From: Rhodospirillaceae bacterium
GTDB taxonomy: Bacteria; Pseudomonadota; Alphaproteobacteria; GCA-2731375
Direction: 5' to 3'
Length of the DNA stretch: 64,000 nt
Assembly: GCA_018660265.1 (NCBI GenBank)
Contig: JABJKS010000089.1
Location: 186,001-250,000, forward strand
Shown here: piece after piece, positions 43,436 to 47,815 of the stretch
Layout: the number at the start of each line of letters is the position of its first letter
Position numbering within the stretch: position 1 is the first letter of the stretch
Translations under genes and position numbers: made by a program
The notes under the pieces: model-generated
Databases searched by the model: none
Told to the model about the DNA's origin: nothing
What the model saw: only the letters and a program-made list of their open reading frames with translations

Positions 43436-43455
43436 GCGGTGCGTGGACCCTCTGG

Positions 43456-43557
43456 ATTACCGGGTCGAAGCCCGGCAATGACGAAGATAGGGTAAAAATT
43501 GGCAGAAAACAGGCAAACCCATCATGCACTTGTCATTAACGGGCTTGACCCGTTAAT
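43456..43557. repeat. Paired hairpin repeat, family C, copy 2
   Basis: Two stems of the same family in opposite orientation: ATTACCGGG-TCGAAG-CCCGGCAAT (43456-43479, one mismatch) and ATTAACGGG-CTTGA-CCCGTTAAT (43535-43557, perfect). Compared with 12284-12306, the second stem has GC to AA on the left matched by GC to TT on the right, a paired change that keeps the helix. Confidence 0.8.
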
Positions 43558-43612
43558 CCAGGGCTACAAGGCGATGAGATGGCTCCTCTTTGGTGCCGCT
43601 CTATAATCCGCG

Positions 43613-43957: not shown

Positions 43958-43998
43958 CGCCAACCCCTAAATTATGCCGTCAAATTATGCTGTTACGT

Positions 43999-44436
43999 TC
44001 AGGCGGCTTCGACGGTGACGCGCAGACGCCGGCCCAGAATGGCCAGGGCCGCTTCCATGCGGTCGATCTTGGTGTTATGGCGGGGATCGAGACAGCGGCG
44101 GATTTCGTTTTCCCCCAGGCCCATACGTTTACCCAGCTCCACGTTCGAGATACCGGCTTCGGCCATCGCTTCGTACAGGGCGATCTTGGCGGTGATCAGA
44201 GTGCCCGGCGCCACAGTGGGACGGCCACGGGCCGGGCTGGGGCGGGGGATGTCCTCATGGCCTGCCATCGCCGCACACAGGGCCTCCTCCAACGCGTCCT
44301 GGGCCTCGACCAAGGCTTCCTCCCCGTCCGCGCCATCGGTCACCGCGCCAATCACATCGGCCATATGGGCCACGATGCGGCCATCTTCATCCGGCGTCAG
44401 ATCAACCGGGTATGCGAACCTAGCGTGCGATGTCAT
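43999..44436 (-). CDS. hicB: HicB-family antitoxin with C-terminal HTH
   Basis: 145 residues. The N-terminal half has the HicB pseudo-RNase fold (FAYPVDLTPDEDGRIVAHMA, then EEALVEAQDALEEAL); the C-terminal part (about 95-140: ISNVELGKRMGLGENEIRRC) is a helix-turn-helix that would bind the operon promoter. HicB blocks the HicA toxin. It follows hicA by 59 bases on the same strand, the usual toxin-first order. A C-terminal HTH rather than ribbon-helix-helix occurs in part of the family. Confidence 0.92.
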   Translation of the reverse strand: MTSHARFAYPVDLTPDEDGRIVAHMADVIGAVTDGADGEEALVEAQDALEEALCAAMAGHEDIPRPSPARGRPTVAPGTLITAKIALYEAMAEAGISNVELGKRMGLGENEIRRCLDPRHNTKIDRMEAALAILGRRLRVTVEAA

Positions 44437-44495
44437 AGCATGGCCCCTTCAAAAGCCCCATTTTCTCGGAAGTCCCTATCTCAAAAACCACCATC

Positions 44496-44708
44496 TCAAA
44501 AGTCATTCGGATCTATACAGAGGTCGGCCAGCATTTTGGCCAGCAAGCCTTTACCAATTTCCTTCCGGCGATCCTTCAGTGTCGTGCGATGCTGCCCCAG
44601 CAAAACAGTTCCGTGGCTACCCTTACCCTGGCGGGCGACAAATTCCGGAACCAGGCCCCGGCTCTTTCCGTAACGGCGCAGTTTCTTGAGAAATTCATGA
44701 CCGTTCAT
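44496..44708 (-). CDS. hicA: HicA-family mRNA interferase toxin
   Basis: 70 residues from the ATG at 44708; the longer open frame to 44744 precedes the fold and overlaps the promoter. A double-stranded-RNA-binding-like fold: MNGHEFLKKLRRYGKSRG, then the catalytic histidine in RQGKGSHGTVLLG, and ending GKGLLAKMLADLCID. HicA cleaves mRNA independently of ribosomes when HicB is lost. An inverted repeat in its promoter (44720-44737) is a good candidate HicB operator. Confidence 0.93.
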   Translation of the reverse strand: MNGHEFLKKLRRYGKSRGLVPEFVARQGKGSHGTVLLGQHRTTLKDRRKEIGKGLLAKMLADLCIDPNDF

Positions 44709-44713
44709 GGCCC

Positions 44714-44744
44714 TATATATCGCACGTTTTTGTGCGAATCGCAA
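44714..44744 (-). promoter_or_regulatory. Candidate hicAB promoter with operator inverted repeat
   Basis: On the minus strand: TTGCGA (44739-44744, -35), then TTCGCACAAAAACGTGC with perfect arms TCGCAC/GTGCGA (44720-44737), then GATATA/TATATA as -10, seven or fewer bases from the hicA ATG. The inverted repeat sits between -35 and -10, where binding by HicB would block polymerase. The very short leader suggests little or no 5' untranslated region. Confidence 0.5.
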
Positions 44745-44837
44745 GCTAAATCAGATTATGGGGCAGCGGGCATATGAGCGACATAGGTGAATGGGAAATT
44801 AAGTTAACTGGCACCGCGACCCTTAACGGGAACAAAC

Positions 44838-44867
44838 TTGATTTATCATGAAATAAGAAGATATACT
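44838..44867 (+). promoter_or_regulatory. Candidate promoter of the Doc toxin-antitoxin operon
   Basis: TTGATT (44838-44843), an 18-base spacer, and TATACT (44862-44867), 26 bases before the antitoxin ATG. The surrounding sequence is AT-rich compared with the genes around it. The -10 matches consensus at five of six positions, the -35 at four. Confidence 0.55.
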
Positions 44868-44893
44868 GTTGTTTCAATCGCAGGAGACCGGCC

Positions 44894-45121
44894 ATGGCAC
44901 AGACGAGAGAAAAATTCGCAACGCAGATCGATAAGGATGTGCTGGCGGATGTTCGTATGCTGGCAAAGGATGAAGGCCGCCAACTACAAGCAATTGTTGA
45001 GGAGGCGCTTACCGCCCTGCTGGAAGAGCGGCGTCAGGGCAAGGCCCGCTCTCATGTCATGTCGGCCTATCAGAAAAGCCATGCCCGGTATTCGGGCCTT
45101 TATACAAAGCTTGCTGAGTGA
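44894..45121 (+). CDS. Antitoxin of a Doc-type pair, ribbon-helix-helix-like
   Basis: 75 residues, start preceded by AGGAG. FATQIDKDVLADVRMLAKDE and LQAIVEEALTALLEERRQG resemble a ribbon-helix-helix dimerisation and DNA-binding segment; the C-terminal tail SHVMSAYQKSHARYSGLYTK should bind the toxin. It is not a Phd-type fold. Its stop overlaps the GTG start of the Doc gene, ensuring coupled translation. Such RHH/Doc pairs are seen in many alphaproteobacteria and actinobacteria. Assignment rests on context and pattern. Confidence 0.82.
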   Translation: MAQTREKFATQIDKDVLADVRMLAKDEGRQLQAIVEEALTALLEERRQGKARSHVMSAYQKSHARYSGLYTKLAE

Positions 45122-45495
45122 GCCGCGACTATCTGACCCTGGCGGATGTACTCGCCATTCATGGGGATCAAATCGCGACTTATGGCGGCGGGATAGGTAT
45201 CCGCGATCCCGGCCAGCTCGAAGCCGCGCTGTTTCGTCCACAGTCCGGATATTATGAAGATATTTTCGCCGAGGCGGCAGCACTGTGGGAAAGCCTGTCC
45301 CAGTACCACCCCTTTGTTGATGGCAATAAGCGCACGGCCTTTGCATCCATGTTCACGTTTCTGACGATCAACGGTCACGATCTGACAGCGAATGCCGATC
45401 AGTCGTGGCAGTTTCTGTCCGGCCTTTACGAAAGCGGCGAACTTAATTTCGAAGCGTTGGAAAGCTGGCTACGCGAGAATGTGAAGGAAATTTAG
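45118..45495 (+). CDS. doc: Doc (death-on-curing) family toxin, Fic fold
   Basis: 125 residues, GTG start overlapping the antitoxin stop (GTGA). The Fic/Doc catalytic motif is intact: SQYHPFVDGNKRTAFAS (about 62-78). Doc phosphorylates elongation factor Tu and stops translation; other Fic proteins transfer AMP. N-terminal YLTLADVLAIHGDQIATYGG and IRDPGQLEAALFRPQ are typical Doc. Second gene of the pair, convergent with the DUF5131 gene 62 bases away. Confidence 0.94.
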   Translation: MSRDYLTLADVLAIHGDQIATYGGGIGIRDPGQLEAALFRPQSGYYEDIFAEAAALWESLSQYHPFVDGNKRTAFASMFTFLTINGHDLTANADQSWQFLSGLYESGELNFEALESWLRENVKEI

Positions 45496-45557
45496 ACGAA
45501 GTTTGCAAACGGGCGTGCGACCGAGCAATCTACTCTGCCCCCTTTGATTGGTAATTC

Positions 45558-46319
45558 TTATGCATGAACATGAAGATTAGGCATGTCGTCCCATGTGCGG
45601 CCCTTAAAGGTTCTGCCTGTGCGTTTTTTGTTCACGCCACCCCATTGTTTGAAAAAGAAATGGACATCATACAGTTCGCACTGATCAAAAATTTGATCCA
45701 CCCAATTTATATCAAGAGGTCTTGAATTTGGCCCTGACTCGCCCCCGACAATCGCCCAATGGATGTCCGACAAATTGATTTTGCCTACCGGACCAATCAA
45801 CGGCTCAAACGAAATAAAGCGAACTGCGGCCCGGCAGCGCTTTAGCTCTGCAATGCGGTATGTAACACACTCATCTTCTACCGAAGCCCCGAGCCAGACA
45901 TTTTTCAGTGCGGGTTTGTTCCTTCGCTTCAAAAACTCGGCCATACGTTCCGGTTGTTTGGTCAAAATTTGAAACGTGTGCACCTTAGCCTTTTCCATCG
46001 TTTGCCAAACACGTTCAACATATTCGAAGGGGATATTATCCTGAAATAAATCAGACATTGAATTAACGAAAACCAGTCGGGGTTTTTTCCATGTCAAAGG
46101 AATGTCCAACGTATCTTCAAGAAGATGCGTTTCGCCTGTCCAGACATATCGGGTGCCGCTCTTGCGTGTTGTGCCTCTGTAAGAAGGATGGTCCATTGCC
46201 TGAAGGCGTGCGGCCATACGCATAGCGTAGCAATTGGTGCAGCCAGCGGAAAGCACCCGGCATCCGGATACAGGATTCCATGTCGCATCGGTCCATTCAA
46301 TGTCAGACAATCCGGCCAT
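45558..46319 (-). CDS. Three-cysteine-motif protein, phage Gp37/Gp68 (DUF5131) family
   Basis: 253 residues. The N-terminus SDIEWTDATWNPVSGCRVLS is diagnostic, with C20, C27 and C30 forming the C-x6-C-x2-C motif, then NSMSDLFQD and ILTKQPERMAEFLKRR. The motif resembles an iron-sulfur site of a radical-SAM-like barrel, but no function has been shown. Its start lies inside the end of the tcmP gene (17-base overlap), the classical partner. The overlap means translational coupling. The final sixth has a FFFKQWGGVNKKRTGR stretch usual for the family. Together they form a phage- and plasmid-associated pair of unknown role. Confidence 0.9.
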   Translation of the reverse strand: MAGLSDIEWTDATWNPVSGCRVLSAGCTNCYAMRMAARLQAMDHPSYRGTTRKSGTRYVWTGETHLLEDTLDIPLTWKKPRLVFVNSMSDLFQDNIPFEYVERVWQTMEKAKVHTFQILTKQPERMAEFLKRRNKPALKNVWLGASVEDECVTYRIAELKRCRAAVRFISFEPLIGPVGKINLSDIHWAIVGGESGPNSRPLDINWVDQIFDQCELYDVHFFFKQWGGVNKKRTGRTFKGRTWDDMPNLHVHA

Positions 46320-47190
46320 ATTTCCGATCCGTTGCTTTCAATGCGGCTTTGGATAATCTATTTGCCAATGCGGTGGCCTTTGGCGAAGCGTTCCCCCAAG
46401 CGAATAATAAGTAATACGATGGATAAGCATGCTTCCCTAGAGGAATCATCTCATCCATCACACCACCTTTAAAAACGCTACGTAAGCACTCTATCATAAA
46501 TTGTGCCGCACTTTCAGGTGTGACTACTTTTTCATGGCTTACTGTATCCCCAAACAAATCACCCTGCGTCGATGGTTTCAGGAAAGCGCTCTGCCACTTG
46601 TTCGGACCATACATCCGTGTCAGGGATGGCGCATGAGTAGGATCAACTTTGCCATCGCTTGAAATTTGGCGAAACACGCTTAAACCAGCGGGAAATAAAT
46701 ACCAAAGATCGAGCGCTTCAGTTGCTGCAATAGCTTCGATAGTTTCCCAGTGAACCTGACTTCCAAACGGGTCTAGCAACACAACCCCGCGCTGTGATCG
46801 CCATTGCTCCGCTCGGCAAATTCCCTGTATCTGCTCGTTCGCATCGCCAACTACGTAGGCTGCGCGCTCAGCATTCTGACTATCATCAAATTTTGCTTTT
46901 AATGCCTCAATGCAATCCTTGCGTTTGTCGATAAAGATATAACGCCCAAACGGCGGATCAACCTTTAACGCCCGGTCTGCCGAACCGGCGATAACCGTCC
47001 GAACCTCTTCATCAAGAAGATCGTCTTTGATTTCTGCTAATGGGACCTCGCCAGTGCCGGCAAAGCCGTCAATGTAGAGCGTTCTGAACGCCGTATTGCT
47101 CAGAGCCCTTTGATACATTGAGAGATATTCCCCAATGACATTGAGTTTTCTACCTGTGGAGTCTGCGCTGCCGAATTGTTTTTGTACCAT
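46303..47190 (-). CDS. tcmP: Three-Cys-motif partner protein TcmP
   Basis: 295 residues. LYIDGFAGTGEVP (about 38-50), YIFIDKRKDCIEALKAKF and GVVLLDPFGSQVHWETIEAI follow the order of a SAM-dependent methyltransferase core (motif I loop, acidic second strand, DP motif), although the family is not proven to methylate. The name reflects its constant pairing with three-Cys-motif proteins, as here. The C-terminal half is family-specific. The start ATG at 47190 lies only nine bases after a good -10, so translation may be nearly leaderless. Codon third positions look more AT-rich than neighbours, suggesting horizontal transfer. Confidence 0.9.
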   Translation of the reverse strand: MVQKQFGSADSTGRKLNVIGEYLSMYQRALSNTAFRTLYIDGFAGTGEVPLAEIKDDLLDEEVRTVIAGSADRALKVDPPFGRYIFIDKRKDCIEALKAKFDDSQNAERAAYVVGDANEQIQGICRAEQWRSQRGVVLLDPFGSQVHWETIEAIAATEALDLWYLFPAGLSVFRQISSDGKVDPTHAPSLTRMYGPNKWQSAFLKPSTQGDLFGDTVSHEKVVTPESAAQFMIECLRSVFKGGVMDEMIPLGKHAYPSYYLLFAWGNASPKATALANRLSKAALKATDRKYGRIV

Positions 47191-47198
47191 GTCACCGA

Positions 47199-47227
47199 AT
47201 TAGAACAAATAGTGAACATTTTGTCAA
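47199..47227 (-). promoter_or_regulatory. Near-consensus promoter of the TcmP operon
   Basis: On the minus strand TTGACA (47222-47227) matches the -35 consensus exactly, a 17-base spacer follows, then TCTAAT (47199-47204), five of six -10 positions. It is the best sigma-70-type promoter seen in the window, with only eight bases between the -10 and the tcmP ATG. Confidence 0.75.
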
Positions 47228-47368
47228 GGATACGCAGGTCGCTGCAAGCTTGAATTTCACACACAATACTAGTGTAGCATCAGCCGTCCCGCAATCATTC
47301 TTCCATTTTATGCATTTCCTGTAGCCCAATACAATTTATCGTCGATGCCAAAACGTATTTTGCGCTTG

Positions 47369-47815
47369 TCACGCCAAACCCTGCCGCATTTCGGTGCCGA
47401 TGGGTTTGAAGCCGTATTTTTCGTAGAAGGGGCGGTTGTGCTCTGTTGTTTCCAGCAGGTACAGGCCGATCTCGGCGCAGCCTCGCGCGCGGGCGTTGTC
47501 GACGATGCGCTGGACCAGCAGGCCGCCGATGTTCTTGCCCCTGGCAGCGGGGGTCACCACGAGTTCCTCCAACTGGCAATATTCGCCGCCATAGCGCATG
47601 GCCAGGTTGTAGCTGACGGTGGCCATGCCCAGAATTTCCGCGCCCTCCGCGCCTTCTGTGGCCAGGATGATTTCGCCGCGCTGTTTGCTCAACAGCATTT
47701 CAAACGCCTCACCCAAGGGCCGGGCGGGGCCGGATTTGGTGGTGGATTTCAATTCGCCCAGTAATTCAACACAGCGCGCCTCGTCCGCCGCAGTGGCGTT
47801 TCGTAATTCGATCAT
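47369..47815 (-). CDS. GNAT family N-acetyltransferase
   Basis: 148 residues. MIELRNATAADEARCVELLG at the start and the acetyl-CoA loop LVVTPAARGKNIGGLLVQRI (about 86-105) with R/G-x-x-I-G-G are typical GNAT; the C-terminal EHNRPFYEKYGFKPIG closes the fold. Substrate unknown. It lies six bases downstream of the NTF2-like gene, hence an operon. It marks the right edge of the toxin/TcmP cassette, where codon use returns to GC-rich. Confidence 0.9.
   Translation of the reverse strand: MIELRNATAADEARCVELLGELKSTTKSGPARPLGEAFEMLLSKQRGEIILATEGAEGAEILGMATVSYNLAMRYGGEYCQLEELVVTPAARGKNIGGLLVQRIVDNARARGCAEIGLYLLETTEHNRPFYEKYGFKPIGTEMRQGLA

Follow-up and report, generated by a model that had tools for sequence, protein, structure and literature searches.

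A candidate two-enzyme module of TcmP and DUF5131: a methyltransferase-like protein paired with a predicted radical-SAM barrel

Introduction

What two overlapping genes, one encoding the methyltransferase-like protein TcmP and the other a DUF5131 protein with a triplet of cysteines, may accomplish together is the question raised by a locus within a stretch of 64,000 nucleotides from a Rhodospirillaceae bacterium (contig JABJKS010000089.1, positions 186,001 to 250,000; the whole stretch is referred to herein as the window). To our knowledge, the definitions of the two families, TIGR04474 for TcmP and PF07505 for DUF5131, state no function. The pair itself is already known, being catalogued as the phage-defence candidate PDC-M41 in PADLOC. 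In the literature searched, we found passing mentions of the pair only and no experiments on it, no paper for DUF5131, and none for PDC-M41. According to a passage in a 2026 paper, most PDC candidates are without experimental validation (PMC12988326).

An earlier sequence-only reading had suggested that the pair modifies a nucleic acid or a protein, possibly in defence. The comparative results of the present study make this vague hint a testable proposal; what is new here are the predicted folds, the DP[FY]G motif, the pairing and the changes in its arrangement, the replacement of the partner beside TcmP, and the linkage to repressors.

Results

Regarding the layout of the locus (Table 1), the ORF positions, the overlap, and the C-x6-C-x2-C motif in the sequence-only reading agreed exactly with the ORF coordinates. 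TcmP scored 145.7 bits against TIGR04474 (cut-off 53) and DUF5131 scored 306.6 bits against PF07505 (cut-off 28.9), and both are, as judged by these profiles, real genes. One promoter precedes the overlapping genes, and the near-consensus element that had been claimed as common to both was recovered as the only match with at most one mismatch in the 64 kb, with 0.13 such matches expected per window from shuffled sequences. The one deviation from consensus falls on the second base of the -10 box, where the A is not matched, and because of it the element is missing from the list of a stricter scan. With only 8 nt between the -10 box and the ATG of tcmP, transcription would yield a leaderless mRNA.

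Table 1. Positions of the pair, its motifs, and neighbouring features in the window
Feature	Position	Strand	Remarks
Variable segment with the HicBA-like pair, RHH-Doc pair, and tcmP-DUF5131	43974..47368	.	Homology breaks relative to congener G006
HicA/HicB-like genes	43999..44744	-	Sub-threshold matches; context
RHH antitoxin-like gene and Doc/Fic toxin gene	44894..45495	+	Context, outside the pair
DUF5131 gene (three-Cys-motif, PF07505)	45558..46319	-	253 aa; PADLOC PDC-M41B; predicted radical-SAM barrel
Codons of C20-x6-C27-x2-C30 in DUF5131	46230..46262	-	Presumed [4Fe-4S] ligands
Overlap of the tcmP and DUF5131 coding regions	46303..46319	-	17 bases
tcmP (class-I SAM methyltransferase-like, short type)	46303..47190	-	295 aa; PADLOC PDC-M41A; ORF, profiles, and model
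Catalytic-loop motif D140-P-F-G143 of TcmP	46762..46773	-	LDP[FY]G in 48/53 homologues
SAM-binding loop of TcmP, YIDGFAGTG	47050..47076	-	Residues 39-47
K15 of TcmP	47146..47148	-	Invariant in 53 homologues
Promoter-like TTGACA-17-TCTAAT	47199..47227	-	11/12 match; ATG 8 nt downstream

Both PADLOC models were matched, PDC-M41A by TcmP (7.2e-75) and PDC-M41B by DUF5131 (8.5e-102), with the genes adjacent and overlapping. By these matches, the pair is a plain member of PDC-M41, alike in content and with the rarer of the gene orders. The sequence-only reading had correctly recognized the pairing of TIGR04474 with PF07505, from which the pair in the window, with both members over cut-off, does not differ, but it overlooked the PADLOC candidate. 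In the sister candidate PDC-M30, TcmP is of a long type, in contrast to the short TcmP in the window.

The structure prediction proposed for both proteins in the sequence-only reading was run with AlphaFold2 and yielded confident models, a methyltransferase fold for TcmP (pLDDT 92.9) and a radical-SAM-type barrel for DUF5131 (pLDDT 90.5). The TcmP model has the Rossmann-like fold with a SAM loop of a class-I SAM methyltransferase, and the solved structures closest to it were Trm1, a tRNA guanine-N2 methyltransferase (Z 16.4), and RlmJ, the 23S rRNA m6A2030 methyltransferase (Z 15.9), both of which resemble TcmP in fold and SAM loop. RlmJ was also found by the TcmP sequence profile (E 4e-6) and in an hhalign comparison with its family (97.8%, E 7e-13); the RlmJ family model PF04378 gave no match in TcmP. 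TcmP is thus modelled as a class-I methyltransferase fold of the RlmJ/Trm1 kind, in line with the loop, acidic strand, and DP motif of a SAM-dependent enzyme that had been read from the sequence. Across 53 TcmP sequences, there is no variation at K15, D41, the FAG-G loop, or D140, and P141 is kept in 52, whereas the DPPY of RlmJ has been lost and replaced by DP[FY]G. The corresponding motif in Trm1 resembles D-P-[FY]-G, and because of this resemblance the exocyclic amine of a base is favoured as the putative methyl acceptor. TcmP diverges much faster than its partner, homologues being 18-37% identical to the TcmP and 38-63% identical to the DUF5131 protein in the window.

The three cysteines of DUF5131 are invariant in their C-x6-C-x2-C spacing across 54 homologues, none of which has the canonical CX3CX2C motif. 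Other spacings occur within the radical SAM superfamily. In the profile scan, PF07505 was the only family listed for DUF5131, with no match to PF04055 (Radical_SAM), and the spore photoproduct lyase (SPL) model PF20903 had no match in the protein either. A comparison using VIA-align placed SPL, the radical SAM DNA repair enzyme SplB, as the best solved structure for the DUF5131 model (Z 13.1, rmsd 2.9 over 196 residues), followed by viperin (Z 11.3), RlmN (10.8), and then lipoyl synthase and NifB. Six SPL entries led this comparison and also filled the top six rows of a Foldseek search, the E-values of which were weak when taken alone (1.5e-3). The model has the partial TIM barrel of known radical SAM members, and DUF5131 is predicted to be a radical-SAM barrel that is closest to SPL.

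A direct profile comparison between DUF5131 and SPL, for which two or three SPL sequences were available, gave no signal. The link between them runs through structure and an intermediate family, namely, the C-x3-C-x3-C proteins described below: in two steps, each of which matched cysteine to cysteine, hhalign connected DUF5131 to this family (93.6%) and this family to SPL (94.0%), so that the cysteines of DUF5131 correspond to cluster ligands. Since the chain aligns the cysteines, the most fitting interpretation of the odd spacing in DUF5131 is that a radical-SAM motif has drifted, and the claim that DUF5131 is a radical-SAM-like enzyme is supported by the predicted fold and this homology chain. 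DUF5131 would accordingly be described as SPL-like and not as an SPL, which has C-x3-C-x2-C and another partner. All 54 homologues also matched TIGR04471 (radical SAM mobile pair A), to which the DUF5131 protein in the window scored 66 bits over residues 68-225, far below the cut-off of 355; the partner in mobile pair A/B (TIGR04471, TIGR04470) is a second radical SAM enzyme, whereas that of DUF5131 is a methyltransferase.

The pairing of TcmP is obligate. Among 289 genomes of the Alphaproteobacteria, the class of the window, 22 have a TcmP over cut-off and 43 have DUF5131; each of the 22 is among the 43 (22/22). The same scan returned six sub-threshold TcmP-like matches without DUF5131; two of the scanned sub-threshold sequences match the RlmJ family PF04378, and eight align as one family. 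When chromosomal and viral loci were combined, 80 of 81 TcmP-DUF5131 pairs were adjacent, with a gap of 791 bases in the one distant pair. Forty-six pairs are convergent, 23 have DUF5131 first, 11 have TcmP first, as in the window (11/81), and none is divergent. TcmP and DUF5131 have diverged in a correlated manner, as judged from their evolutionary distances (r 0.54, the best of 2000 permutations being 0.21). On the DUF5131 tree, a quick tree with many weak nodes, partnering with TcmP is strongly clustered (14 changes versus 40 in shuffles), and order or orientation changed at least 13 times with adjacency kept, mostly to convergent overlapping genes. In the viral pairs (L115-L186), the commonest phage layout is a convergent tcmP and DUF5131 with 3' ends overlapping by 4-60 bases.

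The most informative result was the replacement of the partner. At viral TcmP loci without DUF5131 for which both sides were sequenced, another SPL-like or radical-SAM-like neighbour was found instead; a further such locus, L173, is interrupted by the end of its contig. In L178 (6199-7963), an SPL homologue with the canonical CX3CX2C motif (E 1e-12 to solved SPL) takes the place of DUF5131 and overlaps TcmP by 23 bases, and searches for further pairs of this type returned just that contig. In five other loci (L129, L138, L146, L165, and L181), the gene next after TcmP encodes a C-x3-C-x3-C protein of 252-265 aa, which is related to a canonical radical SAM protein (PF04055) that lies beside TcmP on a Nostoc plasmid. 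With the CX3CX3C protein as query, 17 loci (L314-L330) were recovered, in all of which (17/17) a TcmP-family gene lies just upstream; the motif of the family is GCxHGCxxPCYA. Five of these 17 loci have, within approximately 10-20 bases downstream, a gene for Mod, the methylase of type III restriction systems (E 4e-23 to solved Mod), and in 4 of the 5, a large gene, named by eye as ATPase/helicase-like, comes after Mod. Wherever both flanks were readable, TcmP had a radical-SAM-type gene next to it.

Of the 43 alphaproteobacterial genomes with DUF5131, 21 have no TcmP, and the same is true of approximately half of 80 viral loci; DUF5131 therefore has functions that do not need TcmP. It is contained in 159 phage records. 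Phages that lack TcmP commonly carry a second class of the protein, most members of which exceed 280 aa. In three phages (L193, L194, and L195), the long DUF5131 is next to or near a large C5-cytosine DNA methylase in the replication module, with the two genes overlapping in one case. We considered this methylase as a general partner of TcmP-less DUF5131 and rejected it, as it was confined to the three phages above and a small number of loci.

The gene-neighbourhood survey of TcmP homologues that had been proposed revealed a link to mobile elements through prophage repressors, phages, and plasmids. Viral contigs yielded 73 TcmP loci when scanned. Of the 53 with enough upstream sequence for the count, 21 have a gene for a CI-type repressor in the 4 kb preceding TcmP, in every case on the strand of TcmP. 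A PHROG scan agreed, with repressors being frequent on the TcmP side and missing from the top list for the other side. In the Gordonia phage Fairfaxidum, the order is integrase, DUF5131, convergent methyltransferase, and immunity repressor. Plasmid copies lie beside BREX, beside two Abi genes, and beside HamA and a helicase (Hachiman), neighbours that are anecdotes rather than a statistical test. The plasmids pSymA of Sinorhizobium (L190) and pAt of Agrobacterium (L198) carry one DUF5131 and two TcmP genes, long and short, and in pAt, HamA and the helicase are a few genes away from these. An expression table for Sinorhizobium meliloti (PMC12445080) lists SMa2243, the TcmP of this species, together with SMa2245, the phage-defence helicase Hna.

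An enrichment of defence islands around chromosomal pairs was also considered and dropped: neighbours of the PADLOC type around 13 chromosomal pairs (9 families matched by 110 proteins) showed no clear excess over control regions (8 families matched by 100). Because of this outcome, the claim of a defence role rests on the prophage and operon context. It draws on the PDC-M41 listing, the type III operons, and the Hachiman, BREX, and Abi neighbours, but not on the surroundings of the chromosomal pairs.

The lower GC content noted in the sequence-only reading was borne out: GC is 47.9% in the pair and averages 57.4 (sd 2.8) over the window, and the GC3 values of the two genes (0.453 and 0.488) are the lowest among 39 long ORFs (mean 0.683). 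Homology to congener G006 ends at 43973 and restarts at 47369, leaving a variable stretch of 3.4 kb; as the contigs of G006 end near the site, this comparison gives homology breakpoints and not an empty site. G006 retains the arsC-like and GNAT genes that flank this stretch. None of the congeners searched had a DNA match to the pair at the same place, and a weak match to DUF5131 was found at another place in one of them (G002). Composition and comparison agree with the recent gain that had been claimed, and by these signs the pair is a recent acquisition. The toxin-antitoxin neighbours stood in part: Doc/Fic was clear (TIGR01550, 63.1 bits versus a cut-off of 38.65), but the RHH antitoxin beside it and the HicA/HicB-like pair were sub-threshold matches only.

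Discussion

The reading that we favour, at about even odds, is that the two enzymes form a mobile module, carried chiefly by phages and plasmids, whose task is the chemical alteration of a base in a nucleic acid and whose most likely purpose is to obstruct other phages. DUF5131 would bind a [4Fe-4S] cluster through C20, C27, and C30 and split SAM to yield a 5'-deoxyadenosyl radical, as in SPL or RlmN, and TcmP would spend a second SAM on the methylation of an exocyclic amine, using D-P-[FY]-G. The two may share a target, acting in sequence or as a complex in which TcmP depends on its radical-SAM partner, and the outcome would be an immunity module of the PDC-M41 kind carried by prophages and mobile elements. 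We infer the binding of the cluster and SAM, the base as a target, the sequential action, and the anti-phage outcome from the folds, motifs, and contexts described above. Of the two substrates originally considered, a nucleic acid appears likelier and a protein less likely because the nearest folds (SPL and RlmN; RlmJ and Trm1) act on DNA or RNA; yet the near folds also include viperin, which is a nucleotide enzyme. The substrate of viperin is CTP. The barrel of this antiviral radical SAM enzyme is related to that of DUF5131, less closely than SPL, and we know of no TcmP partner for viperin.

The phage-borne copies may also be taken to indicate that the pair, or DUF5131 alone, alters the DNA or RNA of the carrier phage to evade host defences, with the chromosomal copies being prophage remnants. 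The 159 phage records, the frequency of TcmP-less DUF5131 in phage replication modules, and the three phages in which it lies beside a C5-cytosine DNA methylase are consistent with this possibility, which we nevertheless regard as doubtful: that class of DUF5131 is longer, mostly over 280 aa, and has no TcmP, whereas the TcmP-linked class often lies behind a lysogeny repressor, and phage self-protection does not apply to the copies in plasmids and restriction operons. The proximity of SPL, which is the nearest solved fold of DUF5131 and a homologue of which replaces it in one locus, suggests the reversal of a base lesion with the help of TcmP; a methyltransferase is an unexpected partner for lesion reversal, and the patchy, mobile distribution is unlike that of most repair genes, which makes nucleic-acid repair quite improbable.

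The overlap of the two genes, their position next to two toxin-antitoxin-like operons, and the constant presence of a radical-SAM-type partner beside TcmP where both flanks are known would suit a system in which DUF5131 damages host nucleic acid and methylation by TcmP protects it. A toxin needs its cognate antitoxin alongside, whereas DUF5131 is too often without TcmP (21/43 genomes) for the latter to be the antidote, even if other antidotes are possible, and the pairs are mostly convergent and not co-transcribed; such a system is unlikely. The change of the adenine-methylase motif DPPY to DP[FY]G and the rapid divergence of TcmP may be explained if it is an inactive methyltransferase fold that serves only to anchor the radical-SAM partner at the target of the latter, but the invariance or near-invariance of K15, the SAM loop, and D140-P141 in 53 sequences leaves little probability for this reading, the smallest that we assign to any.

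A broader and rather speculative form of the two-enzyme module, to which we give a low probability, is that TcmP is a general companion of SPL-like radical-SAM proteins, i.e., DUF5131, SPL homologues, and the CX3CX3C family. In this immune system, which would work by modification, TcmP would methylate a base that the radical enzyme then converts to a hypermodified form, and phage nucleic acid would be marked or poisoned as a result. Three types of SPL-like or radical-SAM-like partners share one family of methyltransferase partners, in prophage repressor and restriction operons. Should the proposal hold, immunity in bacteria and prophages would include paired SAM chemistry directed at bases, a form beyond the known restriction-modification and viperin types.

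Two minor observations concern the genome in which the locus resides. A second TcmP of the long type (390 aa, PDC-M30A) lies at a contig edge (L003; G000:C75:138-911), so that any DUF5131 partner would be off the contig. In the window, a short element with inverted halves at 43451-43576, between the hydrolase and arsC-like genes, has dozens of partial copies in the same genome and in nearly all congeners searched, and it looks like a dispersed palindromic repeat.
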